From a virus: 23,362 nucleotides of DNA. The notes beneath the pieces are model-generated. The model saw nothing but the letters and a program-made list of their open reading frames with translations, was not told the DNA's origin and made no database searches. The stretch lies in IMG/VR virus record IMGVR_UViG_3300042691_029096, positions 1 through 23,362 of that record; one strand, given 5' to 3'. Below, piece after piece: positions 8,754 to 15,601 of this stretch (positions are counted from its first letter, which is position 1; every line of letters begins with the position of its first letter). The translations under genes were made by a program, and so were the position numbers.

Positions 8754-11700
8754 TTACGCCATCACTGATTGGATTTCTTTCTGAAGAACAAAATGAGTTT
8801 TTTCAATTATAAGTCCATCAGTTGGGGTATTTAATATACCAGAATTTAAAGCTGCAACAGTTGAAGATTGAGTTGGTGCGACTGAAGATTGATTCCAATT
8901 AAAAAGACTGGATGGTTTATTATTATCTCTCTTTTTATTATCTTTTTTATTGATAGAGAATATATCTGCGGGTTTGCTTGTAGGTTTAGCAACAACATTG
9001 CCACCATACCTAAAGTAACTGTTCATAACAGATTCAGCTCTTCCATATCCTTCGTATGTCATTGCTCCGCCATTAGGATAATATTCAAAATGAAGATGAG
9101 AAGCCGTTGAACTGCCGGTATTTCCCTGTCTTCCTATCATTTGGCCAGCCTTTATTGTTCCTCCAGTTGAAACATTAAAAGATTTTAAATGGGCAAATCT
9201 AGTCTCTGCACCATTAGAATATCTAAGAATGACACTGTTGCCGTATCCATCACCTTTATCTCCAGCCCAAACTACCTTTGCATCTTGTGCAGATGAAATT
9301 GGAGATCCATCTCCACCGTCCAAGTCAACTCCTTTATGCATTTTCCCCCATCTCCATCCTTGACCAGAGGTTAAAGGAATATCTGTAGGTTTTATTCCAC
9401 CTTCTACCATAGCAGAAGGTGCCCCTGCACCTCCCATTAGTGAGGCAACAAATGATCTATTTTTTCTTTCATGTGGATTATCTGGGTTATACTTACTTCC
9501 AAGAATTGGTTTACTGTAAGCAGCTCTTTCGAATTCATTATAAAAAATACTAGCGGCTGCATCTGCGCTTTCTGCTTTTTTTAATCTAGCATCGGTGCCT
9601 GATTGTTTTAATTCAATGGCAATCCACTCTGCTTGAGCAGAGCGACTATAAGGATCCTTGCCTTTAGATTGAGCCCAAGCAACAAACTTTGGCCACCTAT
9701 CATTTCTACTCCATTGCGCCATTCCCTCAAAAGAAGAATTATCTGGAGTCCTTGTTCTTAATCCACTTTCTCTTAACAAGTTTGCAACAATGCCGATGGC
9801 AGCATTTTTTCCATATAGTTTTTCAAAATACTTAATAAGATCACTAGATGCTTTTCGTTGATCTTCTGAAATTTCTGCAGCAGGAACTTCACCTGGAGGA
9901 AATCCTCCATTTCCCCCAGAAGGTCCACCTTCTAAATTCAATTCTCTATTCAAATTCTGAAGTATTCTTGTTGCAGAACCTTCGATAGAAACTGCAAGTG
10001 CATTAGAAATAAACTTACCAATTCTTTCACCAATACTTAACCCAGATCCAATTCTTCTCGATGGAATAACTCCACCATTTGCCATTGCTAAAGTTCTACT
10101 AATATCATTAAATGAAGTGTTCAATTCAGAGTCAATAGCAGTTTGAACCACAGATCCAAACATACTACCAAGAGAAGTTGCAAGTCTCTTATCTGGTTTT
10201 TGTCCAAGTGCCATATCAATACCTGCACCAAACATTGCGCCAGAGAGACCATTTAGAGATCTCATTCCTTTTACATCTTCAGAACTCCTCTTCAATGCTC
10301 TTAATGCACTTCTCTTTCCTGGTTCGTCTTTACCATATAGTTCCTCGATCTTTAACTTACCACCAATATTTTTTCCAGGCTCTGTTTTTTGTGGTTGTAT
10401 TTTTTGTGGTCTTTTACTTATTGTTTTTTTAATTGCTCTTGATGGTTTTTTTCCTCTTCCAGAAACTTGACCACCTTGAGCAAATTTAGATTTCTTATTT
10501 ACATTAACCATATCATACAATGAAGTTCCAATGAAACTTCCAGCATAAGAAGCCCCACCGATAATTGCACCACCTAAGAGTGCTGCACCAATACCACCAG
10601 TCCCAAGTCCGAGAGCAGCAGTAGCAGCAGTTCCCAGCACACTTCCAATACCAGAACCAATTGCACTCGCAGCTGCTCTATTTGGCTTTTCTCCCAAAAC
10701 TTTAGTGCTGATAATATAATCAACCAATGCACTAACAACAGGTATTGATATCATTTTTAAAGATCCTTTTATGAATCCTAAACCACCACCGACTACTCCC
10801 TTTCCAGGTGTTACAGATACGGGAGGTTTAACTTGTGCCTTCGGAATACCTTTCTTTTCTCCATATATGGTACGTAATATCCCCTCTGCAGATTTCTTTT
10901 CGCGAGAAGATAAGGGTGCGGATCTGCCAGGTCCTTTTCCACCAACTCCAACTAAAGTTCTAACACCTTCAAGTTCTGGAGAAACTTTAACTAATGGTTT
11001 TACAACTGACTTTGCAGCAACTGTTTTTTTCTGAATAACAGTTTTAGCACCTTCCTTTAATATTTGAGAAGGGGTTCTTCCTTTATACCCTGTTAGTGCT
11101 GCTTTGGCAGCTGCTGATGTTCCAGCACCAGTGCCACCTAAACTTTTAGTGTTTCTTGCTACTACTCCGCCTGCAGCAATAAGAGCAATATTAAGCGCAG
11201 TATTTAAATTACTACTAAAATCAGTAAATAACTTCTCATAATTTTTTCCGCCAATATCTTTTACACTTTTCTTTATGGAATCATATGCTTTATATCCTAA
11301 ATCTATAAAACCTATAGTTCCGTCTAAAGCTATTTTTGCAAATGATTCAAAGAACCTAAGAGCAGGTGCTAACTTTGCACCCAACTTTACAAGTTTTGGT
11401 AAATATTTTGCATAGTTATTAAAGATATAACCAAGTAAAGTAAATCCAATAAATCGATTTACTCTATCTAATATATTTCCACCAGGAACAACTGGTATTA
11501 TACCAGAAGTAAACTTATCTCCACCCTTTAGTTTACTTTCTAATCTACTTTCCTTTTCTTGAAATTTATCCTTTTCTTTCGACTTTCTTTGTCTTTCGTC
11601 TTTTTTCTTTCCTAAAAGATAATTATTTTTAATAAGATCTTTTATTTTTATAACTTTATTTCTAATTACAACAACATCGTCTTTCTGTGTTGTTTCTTTA

Positions 11701-11834
11701 TCGACTGGTTTTAAATCCGAACCAGTTATCTTTTTAGTAGAAATATTTTTTAAGGGTACAAGAAACTTCGGTTTCTCTATTGCACCACTTTTTTTACTTG
11801 GTGGTAAAAGTTTTTTGGAATCTATAGTTGCCAT
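8754..11834 (-). CDS. Tape-measure-like tail protein with lysozyme and M23 peptidase domains
   Basis: In this 1026-aa protein, residues 75-105 are a Lys/Glu-rich segment and 121-145 a hydrophobic block related to the neighbouring 682-aa protein. Residues about 385-440 are Gly/Ala-rich and possibly membrane-active. Residues about 655-775 resemble a phage tail lysozyme (LLRESGL with Glu689, then FEGMAQW and AEWIAIEL). Residues 823-925 form an M23 metallopeptidase with H833/D837 (HKGVDLDG), H882 and HLH at 913-915, the zinc and catalytic residues. It is likely packed in or near the tail tube and used to cut host peptidoglycan at injection. The ATG overlaps the upstream stop (TAATG) and has a GGAG site. 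Confidence 0.85.
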   Translation of the reverse strand: MATIDSKKLLPPSKKSGAIEKPKFLVPLKNISTKKITGSDLKPVDKETTQKDDVVVIRNKVIKIKDLIKNNYLLGKKKDERQRKSKEKDKFQEKESRLESKLKGGDKFTSGIIPVVPGGNILDRVNRFIGFTLLGYIFNNYAKYLPKLVKLGAKLAPALRFFESFAKIALDGTIGFIDLGYKAYDSIKKSVKDIGGKNYEKLFTDFSSNLNTALNIALIAAGGVVARNTKSLGGTGAGTSAAAKAALTGYKGRTPSQILKEGAKTVIQKKTVAAKSVVKPLVKVSPELEGVRTLVGVGGKGPGRSAPLSSREKKSAEGILRTIYGEKKGIPKAQVKPPVSVTPGKGVVGGGLGFIKGSLKMISIPVVSALVDYIISTKVLGEKPNRAAASAIGSGIGSVLGTAATAALGLGTGGIGAALLGGAIIGGASYAGSFIGTSLYDMVNVNKKSKFAQGGQVSGRGKKPSRAIKKTISKRPQKIQPQKTEPGKNIGGKLKIEELYGKDEPGKRSALRALKRSSEDVKGMRSLNGLSGAMFGAGIDMALGQKPDKRLATSLGSMFGSVVQTAIDSELNTSFNDISRTLAMANGGVIPSRRIGSGLSIGERIGKFISNALAVSIEGSATRILQNLNRELNLEGGPSGGNGGFPPGEVPAAEISEDQRKASSDLIKYFEKLYGKNAAIGIVANLLRESGLRTRTPDNSSFEGMAQWSRNDRWPKFVAWAQSKGKDPYSRSAQAEWIAIELKQSGTDARLKKAESADAAASIFYNEFERAAYSKPILGSKYNPDNPHERKNRSFVASLMGGAGAPSAMVEGGIKPTDIPLTSGQGWRWGKMHKGVDLDGGDGSPISSAQDAKVVWAGDKGDGYGNSVILRYSNGAETRFAHLKSFNVSTGGTIKAGQMIGRQGNTGSSTASHLHFEYYPNGGAMTYEGYGRAESVMNSYFRYGGNVVAKPTSKPADIFSINKKDNKKRDNNKPSSLFNWNQSSVAPTQSSTVAALNSGILNTPTDGLIIEKTHFVLQKEIQSVMA

Positions 11835-13882
11835 TATGCTACTCCTACTAAGTCTCTAATACCAAGTTTGGTTGCAATATTAGAACGAGAATCACTCTCA
11901 GAAGATATATTAAAGGCAGGAAGTTTAGATCCTCTCGGAACATTTGATTCTTTACTGGGCGTCTTGGTTGGAGGAAGAACTGTAAACGTTGTTCTTGATA
12001 TAATTACTGGAGGACCAGGAACTACAGAACGACTTTGTGGACCCATATTAATTGGTTGACCACGAAGATTTACATACGAATCTGGTTCATATCCCATTTG
12101 TCGCATGATTACTTCTTGACGTTGTGCAGTTCCTTTTATAGTTTTTATATTTGCCCCAAAATTCTTAAAAGCATCTCCAACAAAAGATCCACCAGAAGTT
12201 CCTCTTGATTTTGGAACACTTACTTGAGTCGAATCAAATGGACTCCAGTTTCTTATTGTACTAGGAGCAGTAGGTGCTTGATTATATCTATTAACTGCTT
12301 TAGGAGAAAGTCTTTCTCCTGCTTGTTGATTAACAACTCTTCTATTCAGTGGCATACCAAGAAACTTATTCTGAAAACCCATTTCGGTATATCTTGGTGC
12401 TATGACACTACCAGTTCCAGGAAGAAATCTGCCAAGTTGATTTAATGCACCACCAACCATTCCGCCACCTTGGAATGACTTTATAGTTCTTTTAATTAAT
12501 CCACCACCAGCAGCAAGTTGAATATTATTTGCTATCTTTGGAATATTAGTTCCACCTGCTCTCTTATTTAAATCTAAAAAGAAGTTTGCCCCGTACTTAT
12601 CAACTGCCTTCTTAGACATAACGATTTCACCAGGAGCAGCAGCAATCAATTGTGTGTCAGGACCTGCTCCCGTTATTCTCATTCCAGTATTATCATTGAT
12701 ACCACCACCACCTTCAAATGCAATATCATTAACATTCAATTCAGGTTGTATCTGACCCCCACCAAAGAAAGATCTCCTTCTAACTAATCCACCAGCATTA
12801 AACATTCCCAATGGTCCAATTTTTGAGAATGTTTCGCCAAACATTCCAAGAGGAGAACTCTTTTCTCTTACAACTTCTTTCTGAACAACCTCTGGTTTTA
12901 CATTACGTTCTTGTGCTTCTCTTTGTATCTGCTTTTTTTCTTCTTTCTGACGCCACATTTCGGCACCAAAAGTTGCCAATCCTGCAGCAACGCTAGCAGA
13001 GGCAATAGGATTTGCTTTAATAAAACTCAGTAACTTTGGAGTAAATTTAAATAATAAACCTGTTACACTCCTTACAAATTTGCCAAAAGGAGTCGCAAAA
13101 AGAACATATGCCCCAAGAAGAGTAGGCCACCAGTCCTTTAGGAATCTAAAAATAGTCTCAACTTTTTTTGCATTTTTAGGATCAGAGAACCATTTTACAA
13201 AATTATTAAACGCATACCCAAGCAAAGTAAATGTAATGAATCTTAAAATCCTATCAATAATACTTTGAAATGGTTTAACTACGGTTTTGAGTAAATTTTT
13301 GGCAAGAGTTAATGGTTTTTCTAAATCAGACTCTCTCTTCCTTCTCTTCTTGTTTTCTTCTTCTTTCCTTTCTTTTGATTCTTTCTTTTTAGTTTCTTTA
13401 TTCTGTTCGGTAATACTTTTCAGTATTTCATCAAGTGCTTTAGTTATGTCTTTAACTTCACTTGAATCTGTTAAAACATCGGGAACAACTGCTTTACCCG
13501 CAAGCAAAAACTTGCTAGGAGATACTTTAATTGGTCCAGTTGTACCAATACTTTCTGCTGCTATTTTTTTCTTCTTTAACTTAAATCTCCCTACCTTTCC
13601 CTTTACTCTTTTAAATTCTCCAACGAGTAATTCGTCCTCTTCAGAAGAAAGTTTCTTATCAAAGTTTCTAGATGCAACTAGTCTTTCCTTTAGAAGAGAA
13701 ACATAAGTTCCATAATCAATATCAAAAACATCCTCTAGACCAAGAAGACCTAAAATTCTTTCGTCTACTTCTTCGTCAACAAGATCTGATTCTCCAACAC
13801 CCTCATATAAAGCAAGGGCGGATCCTCTTTTAGATTCCGCCTGTGCGCTTGCAAGTAGGTTGTTTAGATCGTCAGGTCCCAT
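11834..13882 (-). CDS. Tail tape-measure-like protein
   Basis: A 682-aa protein. Residues 150-190 are an extremely charged Lys/Glu/Arg helix, followed at 208-232 by a hydrophobic block (IIDRILRFITFTLLGYAFNN) and another near 250-275. Gly-rich motifs recur (NAGGLVRRR, FFGGGQI, LAAGGGLIKR, FQGGGMVGG), with an AAPGEIVMSKKAVDKYGANF motif typical of tail tape-measure and related proteins. It lies directly after gp26 and the gp51-like ORF, where T4 gp29 and tape-measure proteins of other phages sit relative to their chaperones. The start overlaps the upstream gp51-like ORF by 11 nt. It probably sets tail length together with the next gene's product; which of the two is the main ruler is not decided by sequence. 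Confidence 0.75.
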   Translation of the reverse strand: MGPDDLNNLLASAQAESKRGSALALYEGVGESDLVDEEVDERILGLLGLEDVFDIDYGTYVSLLKERLVASRNFDKKLSSEEDELLVGEFKRVKGKVGRFKLKKKKIAAESIGTTGPIKVSPSKFLLAGKAVVPDVLTDSSEVKDITKALDEILKSITEQNKETKKKESKERKEEENKKRRKRESDLEKPLTLAKNLLKTVVKPFQSIIDRILRFITFTLLGYAFNNFVKWFSDPKNAKKVETIFRFLKDWWPTLLGAYVLFATPFGKFVRSVTGLLFKFTPKLLSFIKANPIASASVAAGLATFGAEMWRQKEEKKQIQREAQERNVKPEVVQKEVVREKSSPLGMFGETFSKIGPLGMFNAGGLVRRRSFFGGGQIQPELNVNDIAFEGGGGINDNTGMRITGAGPDTQLIAAAPGEIVMSKKAVDKYGANFFLDLNKRAGGTNIPKIANNIQLAAGGGLIKRTIKSFQGGGMVGGALNQLGRFLPGTGSVIAPRYTEMGFQNKFLGMPLNRRVVNQQAGERLSPKAVNRYNQAPTAPSTIRNWSPFDSTQVSVPKSRGTSGGSFVGDAFKNFGANIKTIKGTAQRQEVIMRQMGYEPDSYVNLRGQPINMGPQSRSVVPGPPVIISRTTFTVLPPTKTPSKESNVPRGSKLPAFNISSESDSRSNIATKLGIRDLVGVA

Positions 13883-14048
13883 TTTGTTGTTGCTTTACTT
13901 TTTCCTCTTCCAAATAATTCTTTAACATTGCAACATACACATCCCTTTCCCAAGGCATCAAATGTTCAATCTCCCATAATGAATATTTATGGTACTGCAT
14001 CAAAGCAAAATTTAACTTATAGAAATTTTCTAGGTCCATATGGACCAT
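13872..14048 (-). CDS. gp51-like small ORF, probable -1 frameshift extension of gp26
   Basis: This 58-aa ORF starts MVHMDLENFYKLNF and contains SLWEIEHLMPWERDVYVAML, a pattern typical of the short C-terminal part of phage tail assembly chaperones (gp51-like in T4 terms). It starts 2 nt after the gp26 stop, in the -1 frame relative to gp26, and that frame is continuous with the slippery site at 14057-14063. It overlaps the tape-measure gene start. It may be translated from its own ATG (14048 or 14039, no clear Shine-Dalgarno), as a gp26 fusion of about 299 aa, or both. Its position just before the tape-measure gene is exactly that of the T part of G/GT chaperones. Confidence 0.75.
   Translation of the reverse strand: MVHMDLENFYKLNFALMQYHKYSLWEIEHLMPWERDVYVAMLKNYLEEEKVKQQQNGT
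13984..13991 (-). promoter_or_regulatory. Late promoter-like CATAAATA
   Basis: CATAAATA on the minus strand, inside the gp51-like ORF and about 100 nt before the tape-measure-like gene start at 13882. One base differs from TATAAATA. Confidence 0.35.
14033..14046 (-). other. Hairpin downstream of the slippery site
   Basis: GGTCCATATGGACC is a perfect inverted repeat with a 5-bp GGTCC/GGACC stem and an ATAT loop. It begins 10 nt after the slippery heptamer, within the range in which a stimulatory structure can act. A competing TAGGT/ACCTA pairing is also possible. Confidence 0.5.
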
Positions 14049-14050
14049 AC

Positions 14051-14770
14051 CTATGCGAAAAAACTGGACAAACCCTCCAGAACAACTTCACTTTCAACTT
14101 CAGTTTTTGGATTTTTAACCTTTACTGAATGCGAAAGTTTAGGCATAGTTTCAAAAAACTTTTCAATTTGTTTGAATTGAGCAGAATTCATTTGCTCTAG
14201 GAAATCAATGAGTTCCTTTTTAGTCACATCACTTGAAGCCCAGACTTCTTCTTCATTAAAGATTTTGTCAATACAACTGGCAACCAGATCAAAAGACTGA
14301 TCCATATTTGTGTCACCAGAAAAATCAAAATTATTTTTAATAAATTGATCCAATGAAGGATACTTCATTTCCATAATAATATTATCATCTACTTGAATTT
14401 TATTAGTGTGCTCTTCACTTTTTTGCACCCTAATTTCATCAATATTAATTTTGACAGGAACATAGGTTTCTCCGTCATCAGGGCAAATTACATTAACTTC
14501 AATTTCTTCCCCAACAGACTTACCACGAATATTCAAAAAGAGATATTCAATATCAAAGGTGGGAAGAGATTCAACTTTAATATTTTTTGTTTGAATGCAA
14601 CTCTTGATTACATTCTTAATTGCTGTTGTGATTTCTTTCGTATTCTCACTTTCTAGTGCAAGAACAAGAAGTTTTTCTTCCTTTACTAAAAATGGTCTAT
14701 ATTGAATTTCTTGTCCAGTAGAAGGAAGTTCCAACTCATATGTTGGCGTAGAGATCTTTGGTAAAGGCAT
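14051..14770 (-). CDS. gp26: Baseplate hub subunit gp26 (tape-measure chaperone)
   Basis: The 239-aa protein begins MPLPKISTPTYELELPSTG and continues EIQYRPFLVKEEKLL, the hallmark of the T4 gp26 / T4_baseplate family. A second conserved block is FDIEYLFLNIRGKSVGEEI followed by a CPDDGE segment. In T4, gp26 is needed to assemble the central hub; the family probably chaperones the tape-measure protein. Translation starts at an ATG with AGGT upstream, and a late-promoter-like AATAAATA lies at 14798-14805. Its last two Phe codons form a slippery sequence that links it to the gp51-like ORF. The gene is full length. Confidence 0.9.
   Translation of the reverse strand: MPLPKISTPTYELELPSTGQEIQYRPFLVKEEKLLVLALESENTKEITTAIKNVIKSCIQTKNIKVESLPTFDIEYLFLNIRGKSVGEEIEVNVICPDDGETYVPVKINIDEIRVQKSEEHTNKIQVDDNIIMEMKYPSLDQFIKNNFDFSGDTNMDQSFDLVASCIDKIFNEEEVWASSDVTKKELIDFLEQMNSAQFKQIEKFFETMPKLSHSVKVKNPKTEVESEVVLEGLSSFFA
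14057..14063 (-). other. Slippery heptamer T TTT TTC, candidate -1 frameshift site
   Basis: On the minus strand the last codons of gp26 are AGT TTT TTC GCA TAG. The heptamer T TTT TTC is in the correct X XXY YYZ register for -1 slippage. After slipping, ribosomes read CGC ATA GGT ATG and continue into the gp51-like ORF, avoiding the gp26 stop. Confidence 0.7.
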
Positions 14771-14797: not shown

Positions 14798-14805
14798 TAT
14801 TTATT
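14798..14805 (-). promoter_or_regulatory. Late promoter-like AATAAATA overlapping a stop codon
   Basis: AATAAATA on the minus strand, 28 nt upstream of the gp26 ATG. It overlaps the TAA stop of the gene at 14804-15601 (TAATAAATA). The spacing fits a T4-type late promoter for gp26 and downstream genes. Confidence 0.55.
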
Positions 14806-15601
14806 AGACCCCAAAGAAAGGTGCAAGAGGTCCACGATTTCTTCCGACATAAGGAAGTCCAGATTCCACCGGCGGTAACTGACCATAGTATTCCTCACCA
14901 TCAGTTACAGGAAATCCTGGATTTCCTGGGGCAATGGTTGATCCTTGCTGTGCTGGCGTTTGAGAAGTTGGTGGTGGTGCAATAAGTTCTCCGCCACCAA
15001 TAATATATCTTGAGTAATTAAATGACACTGTGCATTTTAACAACTGAGACGATTCGTAAGAAATTGGTATCGAGTTAATGCTAATAGGATATGCATTTAA
15101 AAGTCTATATTGCAACACTCTACCGGTATAATCTTTCTCAAATTTTTTGACATAGACTTCTGTTTTATAATCTTCAGGAAACTGAACTCTATAAGAAAAG
15201 TTATTGTTCTCTATTCCTTGGGAAAATTCTTCGCCAACAATATATGACATCCAGTTTTCAAAGAATTGAAGTACATTATAATCATGGTCTACATAAAAAG
15301 TAAAGTCAGCTCTATCATCGTATTGTCTTCTATAAACATGTCTCTCAGTAACACCAGTGAAATCATTATTAATTTCATGTGTTGCTAGTGAAGAACCAGG
15401 AAGTGATGCTTCAGAGCAAGACAAAGAAATAAACTCATCATTATAACCATTGCCTATTCCAGCACTAATTCTTTTTTGAACCCAGGATCTAACAGGATTT
15501 GGTGGATTAAACCAACATTGAAAGTGAGAGGTAAGAGCTGGATTTAATATTGTTGCCTTTAAATCAGATACCGTTTTTTTAACTGGAGGTAATGCTGGCA
15601 T
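14804..15601 (-). CDS. Baseplate tail tube initiator-type protein (gp54-like)
   Basis: The 265-aa protein has the tail-tube fold pattern: an N-terminal FQCWFNPP strand, CSEASLPGSS, RQYDDRADFTFYVDHDYNVLQFFENW, and near the end LLNAYPISINSIPISY followed by a VSFNYSRY strand. These are features of gp19-like tube proteins and of T4 gp54/gp48, which start the tube on the baseplate. The last 45 residues are a Pro/Gly-rich tail. gp48 lies nearby on the other strand. I favour gp54-like over the tube protein gp19 because of its baseplate neighbours. There is no clear Shine-Dalgarno before the ATG. Confidence 0.7.
   Translation of the reverse strand: MPALPPVKKTVSDLKATILNPALTSHFQCWFNPPNPVRSWVQKRISAGIGNGYNDEFISLSCSEASLPGSSLATHEINNDFTGVTERHVYRRQYDDRADFTFYVDHDYNVLQFFENWMSYIVGEEFSQGIENNNFSYRVQFPEDYKTEVYVKKFEKDYTGRVLQYRLLNAYPISINSIPISYESSQLLKCTVSFNYSRYIIGGGELIAPPPTSQTPAQQGSTIAPGNPGFPVTDGEEYYGQLPPVESGLPYVGRNRGPLAPFFGV

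Follow-up and report, generated by a model that had tools for sequence, protein, structure and literature searches.

The gp26 gene and the 58-aa open reading frame (ORF) that follows it in virus record IMGVR_UViG_3300042691_029096 very probably form a single tail assembly chaperone (TAC) gene, in which a C-terminal extension would be reached by −1 ribosomal frameshifting. We analyzed the 23,362 nucleotides of the record (here called the window) and compared the locus with its relatives; all features described below lie on the minus strand. gp26 (14051–14770, 239 aa) corresponds to the short form of the chaperone (TAC-N, lambda G-like) and matches PF12322 (E 6.6e-78) and phrog_150 (E 2.1e-82). 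Its zero frame ends at a TAG codon (14051–14053) that the predicted shift would bypass. The −1 frame extension (13872–14057; lambda T-like) would supply the C-terminus of a 299-aa fusion. The 3' part of this extension is the 58-aa ORF (13872–14048), which matches phrog_634, 'baseplate hub assembly catalyst' (E 1.9e-25), and is usually annotated as gp51 or baseplate hub assembly catalyst. The pair thus matches the profiles of the T4 gp26 and gp51 families (PF12322, phrog_150, phrog_634).

The 3' end of gp26 reads ...TCC AGT TTT TTC GCA TAG GT ATG GTC..., and the slippery heptamer T_TTT_TTC proposed in the first-pass annotation is present in the gp26 register (14057–14063). A −1 shift at this heptamer (read from 14063 to 14057) leads directly into the 58-aa ORF and yields the 299-aa product that had been predicted, with the junction SSFFRIGMVHM. 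A single in-register heptamer is by itself weak evidence and within chance, because in-register XXXYYYZ sites number 66 across the 6740 codons of the window's genes, or approximately one per 100 codons. Another in-register sequence, GGGTTTG at gp26 codon 233, was set aside as a slip site; few relatives have it.

We assembled 160 IMG/VR loci containing gp26 or the 58-aa ORF, together with named phages and distant loci gathered with a Methylophilales phage query and a KVP40 query. The resulting 260 loci gave rise to 151 distinct junctions, and T_TTT_TTN is present in register in 149 of these. The heptamer, its register and the overlap of the two frames are all kept, and judged from these alignments the conservation of the slip site is far beyond chance. 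The site ranges from cyanophages to KVP40 and to phages of Sinorhizobium, Stenotrophomonas and Delftia; the same arrangement is found in phiM7, phiM9, DLP6, W-14, BUCT608, vB_OspM_OC, Melnitz-1, Aeromonas phage G2 and Atu_ph04. The Z base of the heptamer is C, T, A or G among the 151 distinct junctions. At every intact distinct junction except that of Synechococcus phage S-SCSM1, the −1 frame runs on into the extension and meets no stop codon.

The two junctions that depart from T_TTT_TTN are those of Vibrio phage K474 and of contig L100. In K474 (locus L173:3050-3100), which reads ACG CTT TTT GCG TAA TGATGG, CTT TTT and TAATGATG stand in place of the heptamer; frameshifting has possibly been lost there in favor of re-initiation or of single-tRNA slippage. 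Contig L100 (1120–1902) was considered as a natural in-frame fusion and rejected. It is an aberrant contig with a 113-nt deletion in gp26, and the fusion probably reflects either misassembly or a dead copy. In S-SCSM1 (L161:1476-1520) the heptamer is kept, but an insertion of 11 nt beyond the stop codon shifts the extension into the +1 frame. We found no second case of this insertion in IMG/VR, and the annotation of its relative S-SCSM2R shows the usual spacing.

Selection on this site acts at the level of the nucleotides. We traced codon changes on a tree of 176 gp26 sequences from which the slip region had been left out: the TTT codon of the slip site underwent no change, compared with at least 8 codon changes (median 35) in each of 48 other conserved columns (columns in which a single amino acid accounts for 90% or more of the rows). 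The codon on the 5' side of the T run changed at least 20 times among AGT, TCT, GAT and AAT, its last base always being T. The Z base changed at least 10 times, including changes from Phe to Leu (TTA, TTG), and the first six T never changed. Six fixed T followed by a free seventh base are, in comparative terms, the signature of tandem slippage. Comparison of the junctions shows a slip site in register, a −1 frame that is open and selection at the level of nucleotides, and it supports the proposal of the first-pass annotation that a frameshifted chaperone operates in T4-like cyanophages.

In the scheme that we infer for frameshift efficiency, stimulators and binding partners, most ribosomes would terminate at the TAG codon and release the 239-aa short form. 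A fraction would pause on U_UUU_UUC, where both tRNAs could re-pair one base back on UUU UUU; translation in the −1 frame would then produce the 299-aa long form, carrying a small helical C-terminal domain. In lambda G/GT the short form coats the tape measure and the long form recruits tube subunits (summarized in PMC5009743). By analogy, we would expect the tape measure protein to be coated by the part common to both forms and tail-tube subunits to be brought in by the extension, with both forms then leaving the particle.

The same fusion could arise from slippage of RNA polymerase on the T run, giving mixed mRNAs, some encoding the fusion, in place of slippage by the ribosome. A six-T run, extended to at least seven in Melnitz-like phages, is a known kind of substrate for such slippage, and the protein outcomes would be alike. 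We nevertheless consider transcriptional slippage improbable, since tandem tRNA slippage agrees with the register and with the free Z base, and the run is only T6 in most sequences. Six T are a short run for efficient RNA polymerase slippage.

Alternatively, the 58-aa ORF could be a gene in its own right, on which ribosomes re-initiate once they have terminated at the gp26 stop codon (translational coupling). The window copy has an ATG 2 nt after the gp26 stop codon, and TAATG or TGATG overlaps occur in KVP40, phiM9, W-14, BUCT608 and K474. Many relatives, however, have no such codon. The extension frame, from the upstream stop to approximately residue 16, contains no ATG in 45 of 176 relatives, so that in these the extension is not an ordinary separate gene, and it contains no ATG, GTG or TTG in 28 of 170. 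The cases without a start codon include complete genomes (ACG-2014b, ACG-2014d, Melnitz-1 and Aeromonas phage G2). Translation as a separate gene would also leave the invariant six T and the free Z base unexplained; the GGAGG sequence of the window stands 10 nt away from the heptamer and 25 nt away from the ATG, and in T4 gp51 the corresponding domains are a single fused protein (see below). As the general case, the separate-gene reading was rejected on the many relatives that have no start codon at all, and we regard it as very improbable as the explanation of the locus. The extension thus appears not to depend on a start codon of its own. Some independent initiation in the window is possible, because the copy there does have an ATG at the start of the ORF.

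A requirement of the protein for Phe-Phe, combined with a T-rich codon bias, has a negligible probability of accounting for the heptamer: two Phe do stand at the gp26 C-terminus in most relatives and TTT is favored in the window (232 TTT versus 72 TTC), but the other conserved Phe columns underwent 9 to 44 codon changes versus none here, the second residue goes to Leu with the T run retained, and the preceding codon always ends in T.

Annotation of the extension varies among the named phage records that we examined. Several, among them Melnitz-1 and Syn9 (in which no ATG occurs near the beginning of the extension frame), use an internal ATG as the start of the extension, and four (ACG-2014b, ACG-2014d, Aeromonas phage G2 and Atu_ph04) leave the extension unannotated. 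A joined annotation of gp26 and the extension was found in none of these records. We recommend that gp26 and 'gp51' of these phages be annotated together as a single tail assembly chaperone gene, and not as baseplate hub proteins.

Two elements near the slip site were considered as stimulators. The hairpin reported by the first-pass annotation is present: GGTCC-ATAT-GGACC (14033–14046) forms 5 bp and begins 10 nt downstream of the heptamer. The local fold around it is unremarkable (z −1.6). All five pairs are kept in 62 of 87 near relatives versus none of 69 distant ones, and among the near relatives 19 cells are changed on both sides versus a shuffled mean of 6.5. The palindrome GGTCCATATGGACC has compensatory variants in near cyanophages (GATCC/GGATC and GGTTC/GAACC), although it lies within coding sequence. 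We rejected the hairpin as an essential stimulator, the five pairs being formed in 0 of 69 distant junctions where the slip site is kept; at most it is possibly a clade-specific stimulator of frameshifting. The second element, the Shine-Dalgarno-like GGAGG (14074–14078), lies 10 nt 5' of the heptamer, and GGAGG, GAGG or AAGG(A) is found 8–10 nt 5' of the heptamer in most relatives. This position is only suggestive of a stimulatory role, because a conserved Glu-Gly forces part of the motif.

An AlphaFold2 model of gp26 (pLDDT 88) is consistent with a chaperone function. Residues 1–90 superimpose on the HK97 TAC (2ob9, Z 7.8), RBSTP2171 (3fgx, Z 8.1) and YqbN (3klu, Z 7.3); the next matches are 5ir0 (Z 5.4) and, from Z 2.8, unrelated structures. 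With Z near 8, the model gives moderate support for a tail assembly chaperone-like fold at the gp26 N-terminus. The resemblance to these three proteins is one of fold, with sequence identity of only 5–13%, and gp26 differs from them in carrying approximately 150 further residues. Foldseek alone gave no significant E-value for the gp26 model, and comparison of the gp26 profile with the sequences of solved structures gave no credible match. A predicted structure of T4-like gp51 (six sequences, pLDDT 81) had no TAC match (best Z 4.8).

The first-pass annotation had likened the gene order to that of lambda, and part of this likeness holds. Upstream of gp26, in the position of lambda V, is a tail-tube-family gene (14804–15601; PF23849, E 1.7e-18; phrog_45). 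The 682-aa gene downstream (11834–13882) is a putative tape measure gene by position only; we found no homology of its product to T4 gp29 or to the product of the KVP40 656-aa gene. The products of the 682-aa gene and of the 1026-aa gene also downstream (together 8754–13882) share a homologous stretch of approximately 97 residues (hhalign probability 97, E 5e-11) that includes an R-F-I-x-F-T-L-L-G-Y-x-F-N-N motif, and the 1026-aa protein also carries tail lysozyme and M23 peptidase domains.

The arrangement as a whole resembles lambda gpG/gpGT in having a short protein with a −1 extension, a slippery heptamer near the 3' end of the short gene, a position downstream of a tail-tube-family gene and, in gp26, an N-terminus with a TAC-like fold. 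It differs in its slip site, T_TTT_TTN, in the greater length of gp26 (239 aa), which has a second domain, and in that the tape measure gene is putative. The lambda slip site is G_GGA_AAG. The TAC-N/TAC-NC genes of the Vandenendeviridae and Andersonviridae, as described in the phage Adele paper (PMC12846349), likewise combine a conserved poly-T slip motif and a −1 open frame with a mis-annotated chaperone locus; they belong to other phage families, and the motif is given there as GTTTTT.

That T4-like gp26 and gp51 are tail chaperones is already in published work, and the idea is not new in kind. PRFect (PMC10885494) refers to Vladimirov, Gautam & Davidson 2022 for T4-like phages in which a short gene is accompanied by a longer, fused one; the phage Adele paper (PMC12846349) refers to the same study for T4-like TAC-N genes with poly-T slip sites. 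In the literature searched, in which Vladimirov et al. 2022 is represented by the papers that cite it, we found no description of the cyanophage gp26/ORF pair as frameshifted. The present comparison shows that strict nucleotide-level selection on the slip site spans T4-like phages of cyanobacteria and other hosts, which include some of the most abundant viruses of the sea.

According to Atkins et al. 2016 (PMC5009743), frameshifting between G and T is a conserved and widespread feature of long-tailed phages, T4 being the exception. In T4, as the first-pass annotation stated, gp26 and gp51 are separate genes; they lie on opposite strands, likewise in 44RR. The accompanying view of the 58-aa ORF as the plain counterpart of gp51 did not hold. 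Both T4 proteins match PF12322, gp26 with E 8.8e-64 and gp51 (249 aa) over residues 1–201 with E 3.9e-52; the C-terminus of gp51 in addition matches phrog_634. When 85 predicted fusions were combined into a profile, T4 gp51 aligned to it with no gap at the junction, and the alignment of T4 gp26 ended at the slip site. By these alignments T4 gp51 is a gp26 domain plus the extension, and T4 therefore has one gene for the short form and another for the long form. T4 gp26 (L166:3303-3929) also matches phrog_1140, the gp28 family, though weakly (E 9e-4).

T4 and the window thus resemble each other in having a short PF12322 protein and a homologous extension joined to PF12322. They differ in that the two genes of T4 and 44RR are separate, lie on opposite strands and involve no frameshift, whereas the window has one gene with a −1 extension. 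We lean toward the view that the frameshifted gene is ancestral in the whole T4-like group and was lost in T4 and its close relatives by gene duplication. If so, gp26 would be the copy that retained the short form alone and gp51 the copy to which the extension became hard-fused, and the long-quoted T4 exception would be a derived state in which gene duplication has replaced recoding. The comparison with T4 also offers a clean example of recoding being traded for a pair of genes.
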